A DNA stretch of 64,000 bases from Mugil cephalus (lineage: Eukaryota; Chordata; Actinopteri; Mugiliformes; Mugilidae). The stretch spans positions 7,767,672 through 7,831,671 of the forward strand of contig NC_061782.1 of the NCBI RefSeq assembly GCF_022458985.1. Reading direction: 5' to 3'. The translations under genes were made by a program, and so were the position numbers. This document shows positions 15,401 to 21,400 of the stretch, one piece after another. The notes under the pieces were generated by a model. The model made no database searches. It was given only the letters and a program-made list of their open reading frames with translations, and was not told the DNA's origin. The stretch's first letter is position 1. Each line of letters begins with the position of its first letter.

Positions 15401-18400
15401 TTAGGAAGCAAGCAACCGCCTCCGTCCCGTGTCTTCACTCACGCATGTACAGTACACACAAACAACACACATCTGCTTAAGCCTAATTGCTACTTAGGCC
15501 TCTCGTCATTGTACTCTTTGCTCAAATTGCCGTACTTATCTGAGCGACAAGATGCATGTATCCACTAACACCGTAGCCCATGAAAACAATCCAAATGCAT
15601 TTTCCTCCCCGTTAAACTTCTTCTAACTGGATCATTGTGTATTTCAGATGGTACGAAAGGGGCTCCACGAACTCAGCTGTAATGTAAACTGAAGGGGCAC
15701 AAACAAACAAAATACTGCAGCGTAATTGGAGCTTGTACTTCTGCAGCACTGAGCGTCTTTACTGCGCATAACCGTGTCACAAAAAGCCTTGAAACAACCC
15801 GCGCCAAGTGTTACGTTTCCTCGATCGCTCGTTCCACTTTTTATTGCCATTTCTCATTTATTTTTTTCCATGTATTTTTTTTTCCCCCAATTGTCTTGGT
15901 TTGGGTCCTTCCCATCAAGAAGAGTAAATACAGATTTAACAGGATTTGTTTTCCTGAAAATGAAAGCCACATGTGCAGGAACTGAGAGTCACGGCTCAGC
16001 ACAACAGTTAAGACCAACAAGTGTGAATGTGTGTGCATGTTTGTGTGTGTGTGTACATATGTCTAAATAATTGCCAGTATGTGTTGCAGCCCTGTCAGGA
16101 AAGCATGATTGGATGTGGAAGGAATAACGTCTGGCTCCTGTCCAGTCATAGTAGGACAGGAAATGCATACATCCTTAAACAAACAAAGCCCCACCCCCCA
16201 GGACATCAAACTACCTAATGATTGTACATTTTTGCAGTTCCACTTGCACACACTCTCCTATTGTCTGGCTCAGACCCAGCCTGACAGTAATCCAGATTCT
16301 GTCCCTAGGTAATACTTTAATGGATCAATAAATACTTCCACAAATGATAAATGACCAAACTTCCTAGGTAGCCGCAGCAGACGCCGAATGGCACGGCCCC
16401 AGATTGTGCCATCACCACATCAACAATGTGTTTCGCTTTTTTTTTTTTTTTTCATGAATGCCACAGGACGATGTGGTTAAGGTGGGGCGGCTCTAAGGTT
16501 CTGGGAAGAGAGCAGGCGAGCAAACCAAGAAAATAAAAGCTGTAATGTTTGGTATTGCGGGCTCAGAAGAGGGTGTCACAGTAGTCCAACTGAGGGGAAT
16601 AAAATAAAGTCAAATTTGTTTTGAGTGGGAACAATTAAGGCCCAGTCTTGTCTGAATTAACTGCAGCAGGATGGGCCGCGGACAGAGGAAAAAACACATA
16701 TCTATAGAACAAATGTTTTGTCTCTGCTTTCAACACATCTCGAAGAAGCAAAGCAAACGGCTGCATGTATGAATCGCACCATTATAGCAATGTAATGGCT
16801 AATATATACTCGATATAAAAAGTAATTAGTCCAACCTTAATGCACCTTCTGCTGTTGCACTTTGCTTCTGGAAACCCAACAGACAGACGAGTTATTAGTG
16901 CAGCTCTGCAGCTTTTTTTTTTTTTTTTTATTATTATTTTTTAAGATGTTATTCCTCTGGTTCTTGAAACTATCCAATCCCTGTACAGTTATTACCCTGA
17001 GCCGAAAACTGTGCACATAAACACACACTCCCTATTAATAGAGCATGTGTTATGGCACCAGGAAAGAATCTGCCACAGTCTGCCCAATCTGACAGCTTTT
17101 ATTATTTATTAATTACCTTACTTTTACAAGCTGGAGAATTCAGTAATTTACAGCGGCCTGCTGGCAGGAGGGTGGAGGAGGAGGCTGTTTTTCCAGCCCA
17201 AAGGGACAAAAGGCCCTCTCAGGTTGTCCAGGAGTTCTGCATCCTGACTAGACTTTAGTGTCTCCTCCTCTTTTATTTATGTATAAACTGGAGAAATGCA
17301 CGTGTGTGAACACATCGCTTCTACCATCATTTACTGCGCATTATAAATTCATTCTTTAAACCTTATAAATTCAGTGCTCGGTTGAAGTTCCCATCCGTAC
17401 TGGACAGTACTTCTCATTCACTGCATATTAACAAGGGAACGCTCTTTTTTTTCCTTTTGTGCATTCAAAGAATAACATGCAGAGAAGAATTCTGTAATGA
17501 TCTAACATTTATTTCAATACTGACTTGATCATTTTGTCTAAAAAAAGAAAAAAATAACAAAAAAAAAAACACGTGGCAAACAACCTTAACCGTTTTTTTT
17601 TTCAAAAGTCTAAAGTGACATTTTTAAGGTGCAGCAAGAAAAACCTAATGGTGCAAGCATGTGCAGCTACCAGGTGCGGTATAATAATCATGCAGTACCT
17701 CGCTCTCACAACAATCGCTGGGGCTGTCACCATGAATGGCCATCTGGTAGCGGGCATACAGCGCCACCGACTGCTCATAGGAAGCTTTGAACTGAGGGTC
17801 CTCAAAGTTCACCGGCACTAGCCTCACCTTCAAGCAGGGAGAGGGGTGGGGGGGGGGGTAGAGGGAGGTTTTATAAGGATGGACAATAAATAAAGAGGTC
17901 ACAGAAAAAAATAGGGAAGATGGCAGAATGGACAGTGCAGGAATTAGCAGCGTGTTACATAGGGTTGACATCAGTCTCCTAGTCCTCGAGGGAAGCTGGT
18001 AACACAGCAGGTTTGTTTTGTATTTCAGACTTGGTTTAATCAGACGGTTATACACAAAGGAAACATGAATGCAAGCAAATAGCAGGATTCTAGGAGACTG
18101 ATTGTGTGTTATTAAAATAATAAGATAATGGGAAACCTGAGGATGAGGCTAGTGCACCGCCCGCTTTCGCCACAGCGCGCTCTGAGAGGATTGTTAATTC
18201 AAGATTTGTGCAAGGTCCAGAGGAGCAGCGATCTGTAATTACGTCTGAACGGATCATCTGAGCCAGACACATCCAGCCTCTTGTCTGTTGCCGCAGACTC
18301 CCCTCAGAAAGCTAAACAAGGAAGAACAGACGGCACGCTCTACGAGAATTAAAATCACATTACCGCTAATTATCCTGAATTAAACTGAGATTCCAGTTCA

Positions 18401-21400
18401 CACATATGGGAATAAGCGCGGCGGTAGGTGGAGGGTGGACACAGATGAGCTAAATATGTCTAGGTCAGAGGGGGCTGGCTCACAAAGCTGCCCCCCGCCC
18501 CCTACCCCCCGAGCTCAGGACTGACAAGTCCACTGACCAAACAAGGGCCAACACTCAGACACCTGGAGAAACCGTGCTCTCAGTCGCGGCGTATGGGAAC
18601 GCTTTACGCTTCACTTCATCTACCCGTGACTCACATTTATACACATACGGCCTCTTTGATTGTACCATGTGAATTTACTCCATTAAACTCACGTAGACAC
18701 TTTTCATTTTTTCACAGACTTGAATCAAACTCGCACATTCAAATTTAGATATCTATAAGGGAGACGCCTTCTAAGAAAAATAAAAAAAATAACCAAAAAA
18801 TATTTAACATAAATTTATACACATATAATACAAAATATATTTATTATCTGTTATTATTTAGTTAATTATTAGTTAGTACTAGTGGTTATTAACTAGAATT
18901 TCCTCTAAAATTGCGGAACAAAATTAAAATTAAAAATTAAAAAGTAGAAATGGTAAAAAAGGAATCATTTTGATGCCCCTGTAGGTACCCAGGTTTGTCG
19001 ACCCCTCCCTCCCTCCCCCCCAGAGAAGGTTGACCTACGCCTCCCACCCTCTGACCTGGCTCTCGGAGGGTTTGTCAGGAGGGTCCTTGTGAATGGCCAT
19101 CTGGTAGAGTTTGTACACCTGGTAGGAGGCGTCGAAAGAGGCTTTGAACTGCGGGCTAGGGGGATTGGAGCGCACTAGCCTCACCTTCGAAAAGAATACG
19201 GGCACACAAGGGTTAACATCAACATGCAACGAGTACTCAGAATAACATAAGCGGTGATTAAACACAACTAAAGGGACATCAGGAATCAAGGAGAGAAAAG
19301 TGTTAAAGACCTGTGAAAGGAGACAGAGACATAAACACACTGTTTAAACTCCTTTTTTTTCTTTTTTTTTAATCGAACTAAAGGAAGCAGAAGTTTTGAG
19401 GTTTTCTTCTTTTCTTCCCCAAATTTATACACAACAAGTTCTTGCTTTCACCAACTTCATGTGAAAACAAGAACAATGAAAGAGTGTGTTATATCCCTCT
19501 CTCCCTGTGACACAAAACATACACAACAACATCACAGTAAGCCCCGAAATAGTCATAGCTGTTCGGAAAATACAAAAATAATCATTAGCCTATTGTCTGA
19601 AGGAGGTTTAGAGCCCATTTCTAGTGCTTCACCATGTCATCTAAGACTCGCACAAAATAGTCAAACAAATATACAACTTAAGTGGGTATCCTGTTTTTAT
19701 TGCTTAGGATGTCATTGTAAGTGGCTATAAATCAGAAGAATAAAGTGAATTTTGACCAATGTGCCGACAAAAATGGGGTCCTTTTAATATTCCTTTAATC
19801 ATTTTTTATAGCTTGACTATACTTTGCACTTCTCCTTACTTACCACTTTCAAATCAAACATTACAAAGTGCTTCACAAAACATTAACTTGCTAACTTTCT
19901 GATGATTTGTTGTTTAGTTAACCTTCTCCAAATAAGCCGCATAAGTTATCGACAATTAAAACTCAACGGTGGGAATCAGGAGAAGTTTTGATGGACAGAT
20001 GTGCGGAAAGCAAAGCTGGCTGAGTGTTGCAAATGTCACACAAATTTAGTCAACTTTCTCATCCTCCTCGGGCCTTATTTAATTAAGCGTCTCTTCATTT
20101 GGAAGCTTTTGTTGGCCCCAGAGATTGTGCCATATGAAACCCTTGGAAGGACAGTATGGAGGAACTGAACTTGGGGTTTGTTTGCCTTGGACCTAAGCAG
20201 GTCTCTCATATGAACACTTGGCATCTACGTCCTTCAAGTCAAACAGAGGCGCTGGGGCCTCTTACATACAGACACAATGCTCAAGTTCGGCCGTTTTAAT
20301 TTTGTTCTTAATCTAGAGATATATTTTGATAGTCTAAAATCCTTTTGGTGAACCAGCGCTGCAGCTGATAATGGACAGTGTGGAAATGAAATTTCCAAAT
20401 CTCATAACAGTCATGAAATTCAACACCAGCAGTTGGATATCGCTGATACTTTTAATTAAAATGAAAGACTGTGGTTTATGAAAGCTTTAACTGAAAGGCA
20501 CTTTGCTCCAAACCTGGATCTCCAAGACCCTACTGTGCGCTATTACAGGGTAAAAAAAATAATAATAAAAAAGAGAGAAGACAACTGACTGCCAACACGT
20601 TGCATGACAGTTATGGGAGATTTAGAAGTAAATGCTATGAAAATAAAATAAAAGTGTGGAGAAAGTGGAAAACACTCTAGATGGGGGAACAGTGGGTGAA
20701 CTGTTCCACACTTTCCTTGAGTGCCTGAAGCGACGAGTATTGTGTTACAATACTGACCCCTGGTGGTGGCGCATAGATCCACAGCAGCATTTATGGCCGG
20801 GATGGATACACTTACCAAAGAAACAACTTATACATCTACTCTTGTCTTCCTTGTCACTGTGGATTATCTGTTTGTAATGCACAGTAATATGGTCATCAAA
20901 AGTCATAAACTTCAGACTCTTAATGTTTGCTATCTATATTCATTTCAAAAGTGTTTTGCAAGGATTTCACAGAGTATTCTCATCTGTCACGTAGCGTGAC
21001 ATATTTAACAGACTTGTTTATGATGGCACCGAGCTGGACTGCTTTTAATTGCTCCAGTGTAAACACCGCAATCTTCTGGTGCTGGTGTGAAAACCCTTTT
21101 CAGCCTGCAGCTAAATCAACAGAACAGAAGCCCAAGTCACAGCATCAGATGCATTCATTAAACAGCTAATGATCCAAAAAGGGTCTTTAGCCAGAAATCT
21201 GACGCAGCTGAGCGGCATGTTCTCCTAAATGGGTCAGCTGGAGGCTGCTCTCAATTATTTGACTTGTAAAACATATAATTAACCTTCATTTGCAAAGGAT
21301 AACCTTGTGTGCAAGCCCACTTAGTGGAATTGAACGATAAAAGCAAACAAACAAGTTAATCCAATTGAAAAGAACCGACCGGGAGGCAGCCTTCGCCCGT

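Follow-up and report, generated by a model that had tools for sequence, protein, structure and literature searches.

An intronic element of Mugil cephalus ate1 complementary to the acceptor regions of both alternative exons 7a and 7b

The ate1 locus

The ate1 gene lies on the minus strand of the 64-kb stretch of Mugil cephalus DNA analyzed here (referred to as the window; all positions are those of the window). Using the mouse Ate1 protein as a query, exon pieces were detected from ~31.36 kb (a weak match with an E value of 0.009) down to 3.4 kb, and a profile search with Pfam ATE_C gave two places in the genome, both inside the window. No second ate1 copy that could have served as an internal comparison was found in the searches of the 634.8-Mb genome (24 contigs). 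One ate1 intron carries an uninterrupted run of 35 G, from 22896 downward on the minus strand. The window also contains TRIM-like coding pieces with RING, B-box, and PRY-SPRY (39920-42095, plus strand), another TRIM-like PRY-SPRY (47881-48483, minus strand), Kringle and trypsin-like protease pieces perhaps belonging to a plasminogen-activator-like gene (44369-45146, minus strand), and a piece matching the AbLIM anchor region (61437-61718, minus strand).

Exon 7a (19056-19184) and exon 7b (17699-17827), both of 129 nt and on the minus strand, are separated by an intron of 1228 nt (17828-19055, minus strand). Exon 7a is preceded by AG and followed by GT, has an open frame, and matches mouse 7a and the solved ATE1-2; exon 7b, similarly flanked by AG and GT, matches the solved ATE1-2 with an E value of 5.1e-13, and its protein, used as a genome query, matched 7b and 7a alone. 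Residues were matched at 25 of 42 positions between fish 7b and the solved ATE1-2, and at 32 of 43 between fish 7a and mouse 7a, while 23 of 43 were identical between fish 7a and fish 7b; given these identities, the duplication that gave rise to 7a and 7b probably predates the divergence of fish and mammals. The two are tandem homologous exons of equal length, as in the docking/selector class, and the pair corresponds to the exons 7a and 7b on which the human R1/R3/R4 switch lies. According to PMC9741552, more than 90% of human events of the mutually exclusive exon class have orthologous teleost events; ATE1 is listed there among genes for which arthropods and nematodes, too, have exons of this kind, and these are treated as convergent. 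An Rfam search of positions 17000-20000 gave no matches.

A docking core and two selectors

A first-pass annotation of this DNA, made from the letters alone, had claimed that exons 7a and 7b share their start and that the intron between them carries its 12-nt complement. When the coordinates were checked, the first 13 nt of both exons (minus strand, 19184-19172 in 7a and 17827-17815 in 7b) read exactly GTGAGGCTAGTGC. The plus strand at 18143-18155 reads ATGAGGCTAGTGC, and the pre-mRNA there reads GCACTAGCCTCAT. Opposite either exon start, this docking core (R3-like, 13 nt; 18143-18155, minus strand), read from 18155 to 18143, forms 12 Watson-Crick pairs and one G·U pair at exon position +1, the latter adding a 13th pair to the 12 originally noticed. 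Pairing into the acceptor AG, proposed at the same time, is also real: the G lies opposite C and is paired, only the A is mismatched, and the helix continues upstream of it.

The helices were consequently longer than first described. An ungapped scan with one mismatch allowed gave a 7a selector (R1-like, 20 nt from -4 to +16; 19169-19188, minus strand) at -32.0 kcal/mol and a 7b selector (R4-like, 21 nt from -8 to +13; 17815-17835, minus strand) at -33.3 kcal/mol, each with one mismatch, and both helices cross the acceptor junction. The two selectors contact different flanks of the docking element (18135-18158, minus strand), of which 18158-18139 pairs with 7a and 18155-18135 with 7b. The ungapped scan was chosen because, with gaps permitted, duplex prediction for the acceptors favored other, G/C-rich partners in the intron (-43.0 and -54.9). 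One element is complementary to two selectors through the same bases, as in the docking/selector class, and since both helices occupy the same 13 docking bases, they are mutually exclusive. The distance from the docking site to 7b is 299 nt, and the spread on the 7a side is 1010 nt.

Chance and specificity

In 2000 dinucleotide-shuffled versions of the intron body, the 13-mer query never reached a match of 12 (maximum of 10). When the query was widened to ±20 nt around the acceptor, 12 was reached in 0 of 2000 shuffles for 7a and in 6 of 2000 for 7b. Real DNA was used as a second control, in the form of 202 half-overlapping segments elsewhere in the window on both strands: matches were at most 8 for the 13-mer and at most 9 for the 7a window, but reached 12 in two segments for the 7b window. 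When two mismatches were allowed, three matches of the 13-mer per window were unremarkable (15 of 100 shuffles); such matches are not rare in the window, and the signal comes from the exact match. The 12-mer occurs 32 times in the 634.8-Mb genome, three of these within this 1.36-kb stretch, and this genome count corresponds to an expectation of ~3e-5 copies in the intron when one strand is considered; the docking 20-mer has one genome occurrence with at most two mismatches. For the extensions beyond the core, chance probabilities were 0.21 and 0.053 for the two of 7a and 0.010 for that of 7b, which takes in the 8 nt upstream of the exon; the thresholds were fixed after the pairs had been seen. 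The seven other ate1 acceptors paired at best at -11.4 to -17.6 in the 7a-7b intron; across the 28.4-kb pre-mRNA, their best values were -17.4 to -22.2. The docking site with its two selectors is real, and a chance origin is very unlikely, as the earlier reading of the 12-nt match had claimed.

A functionless relic or chance complement, with exclusivity imposed by protein regulators, would be in keeping with the complete fold (see below), which does not favor the helices. The shuffle and genome counts speak against it, as does the precedent in this intron of the human gene, which is independent of them, and we regard it as highly improbable.

A codon argument for a constrained exon start was also considered and set aside as weak. 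VRLV is encoded by GTG AGG CTA GTG in both exons. The exons use the same codon at 4 of 4 VRLV residues, compared with 2 of 7 among the other residues of four- to six-fold degeneracy (Fisher 0.045); another 13-nt block, within the sequence encoding YQMAIH, is, however, also identical between the exons.

Folding of the pre-mRNA

Minimum-energy structures of 1701- and 1611-nt stretches include the 7a helix. In the unconstrained ensembles of the same stretches, the probability was 2-4e-4 for the 7a helix and 1e-9 to 6e-9 for the 7b helix. The 7a helix reached ~0.72 in a transcript ending just past the docking element, and fell to 4e-4 after the 7b acceptor was transcribed and 0.002 with 7b complete; the docking-to-7b domain by itself gave ~0.85 for the 7b helix. 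The folding results point both ways: either helix is stable when only part of the region is folded, and the two are disfavored in the complete fold. The opening cost was 12.0-15.7 kcal/mol at the exon starts vs a background of 7.5 (sd 3.5; 60 random 20-mers), and 2.7-5.9 kcal/mol at the docking element; hybrid energy and opening costs, summed by hand, came to about -10 (7a) and -14 (7b).

Two G tracts and one C tract of the minus strand bear on these values. The first G tract (19002-19021), 34 nt past the donor of 7a, is a quadruplex motif and may pair with the polypyrimidine tract of 7b; the second lies at 18495-18510, and the 7b polypyrimidine tract contains an 11-C run (17848-17858), the longest C run of the pre-mRNA. 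With the three tracts (picked after the fold had been seen) kept unpaired, the 7a helix was restored to ~0.72, and the 7b helix stood at 0.002-0.003. In these models, mutual pairing of the G and C tracts may act as a competitor of the 7a helix.

It is conceivable, though we think it distinctly unlikely, that the helices exist and that pairing of the G tracts with the C-rich polypyrimidine tract of 7b dominates and sets the 7a/7b ratio. In addition to the restored 7a helix, this reading draws on duplexes of -31.5 (the second G tract with 17868-17853) and -25.6, and on the presence in the 7a-7b intron of 3 of the 8 runs of at least six G in the pre-mRNA (binomial 0.0038). G/C pairings are common, however, the same tracts reaching -56.4 with unrelated segments of the window; the tracts were selected with the fold in view, and a polypyrimidine tract is normally bound by protein.

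An R2-like candidate (18498-18518, minus strand) would pair at -37.6 kcal/mol with 12306-12286, an R5-like candidate ~224 nt upstream of exon 8 (12286-12306, minus strand). This energy was matched by 0 of 240 shuffles. Real segments, taken half-overlapping from both strands, gave lower energies through G/C tracts in 8 of 35 cases (two further segments contain the candidate itself), and because of these eight the pair is kept as a weak lead only.

The acceptors as possible 5' splice sites

Both acceptors (19184 and 17827, minus strand) read AAG/GTGAGG, the slash marking the junction. Against the U1 end, this scored -10.1, compared with -7.2 for the 7a donor and -5.7 for the 7b donor, the only donors scored; the seven other exon starts gave -0.3 to -6.8. 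AGGT sites can serve as 5' or 3' splice sites, according to PMC10809524. One could imagine that the docking element guards composite U1-matching sites, for which U1, the intronic RNA, and the acceptor machinery would compete, and that the G tracts would tune this competition through the 7b polypyrimidine tract; we offer this as a speculation with a low chance of being correct.

Proposed mechanism

An intron of 1228 nt is too long for steric exclusion. Exon 7a joined to 7b keeps the frame without a stop, and therefore nonsense-mediated decay would spare double inclusion. Since neither decay nor crowding enforces exclusion, an active exclusion device appears to be needed. We propose that the docking element would pair at one exon at a time, engaging either the acceptor and start of 7a or the corresponding region of 7b. 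Pairing with 7a would mask the 7a acceptor and place the exon in a loop, leading to splicing of 7b, and pairing with 7b would mask the 7b acceptor, leading to splicing of 7a. Transcription passes through 7a and the docking element before it reaches 7b, which would give the 7a helix the first chance to form. The first-pass annotation had put forward one docking site that hides one acceptor at a time and thereby enforces exclusive splicing. Its complementarities hold, as does the coverage of both acceptor junctions by the helices, which the seven other acceptors set apart; masking itself and the enforcement of exclusive splicing are what we infer from this arrangement.

The pairing may also be real and act by proximity or looping, with no masking of acceptors: either 7a would be looped out with its donor, or splice signals would be brought closer and an exon activated, as in Dscam. 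The 7a helix does enclose the remainder of exon 7a and its donor, and a review lists ATE1 among genes in which long-range pairing activates splicing by bringing splice signals closer (PMC11802352). On the other hand, in each helix the pairing crosses the acceptor junction and takes in the final G of the acceptor, and the docking element lies between the exons, so that neither helix would be expected to move an acceptor to the upstream donor. We consider proximity or looping unlikely, if still worth keeping in mind, and the masking of acceptors by competing helices is retained below.

Comparison with known systems

The docking site and its selectors most likely correspond, in this fish, to the human ATE1 R1/R3/R4 switch: layout and energies are similar, with one element facing two selectors in the same gene and at the same exon pair. 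Disrupting the human ATE1 pairs reportedly disrupts splicing, and restoring them restores it (Kalinina et al. 2021, NAR 49:479). In human ATE1, R1 and R4 compete for R3, according to PMC11802352. PMC8052449 gives, for the pairing of human exon 7b, -33.2 kcal/mol, a length of 17, and a spread of 51, and for that of exon 7a, -35.9 kcal/mol, a length of 13, and a spread of 952. These energies resemble those of the fish (-33.3 and -32.0 for 7b and 7a, respectively), as does the spread on the 7a side (1010 nt in the fish), and the tie to mammalian ATE1 drawn previously agrees closely with these published human values. In contrast, the spread from the docking site to 7b (299 nt in the fish) and the helix lengths (21 and 20 nt in the fish for 7b and 7a, respectively) differ from those listed for human. 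The further suggestions of an old mechanism and of a particular fish form are narrower than they were worded: the former would rest on two points, this fish and the published human data, and the latter on spacing only (299 vs 51 nt). The human R2/R5 pair resembles the fish candidate pair in its order along the transcript, and the latter would likewise loop out 7b; however, R2/R5 covers 30 kb, whereas the fish candidate covers ~6.2 kb and does not exceed the real-segment controls. When the polymerase is slowed in human, the 7a/7b ratio goes up by way of R2/R5 (PMC11802352).

The human switch is known; the fish case and its spacing are new. Among the matches listed in the literature on ATE1, none concerned a docking site in fish ate1, while papers of 2021 and 2012 may mention fish. 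If the proposed correspondence is true, the switch of the human gene would date back ~425 million years, to the ancestor shared by fish and mammals. Fish would then provide a natural variant of its geometry, in which the distance from the docking element to the second selector is ~six times that in human, and would allow the switch to be tested in an animal.

A single docking site with mutually exclusive selectors is also found at exon 6 of Dscam, as described in PMC10790352 and PMC6071210, the latter of which proposes, for the origin of such arrangements, duplication of one stem arm. According to both sources, the Dscam docking site lies outside the exon cluster and its pairing activates, whereas that of fish ate1 lies between the two exons and covers their acceptors.
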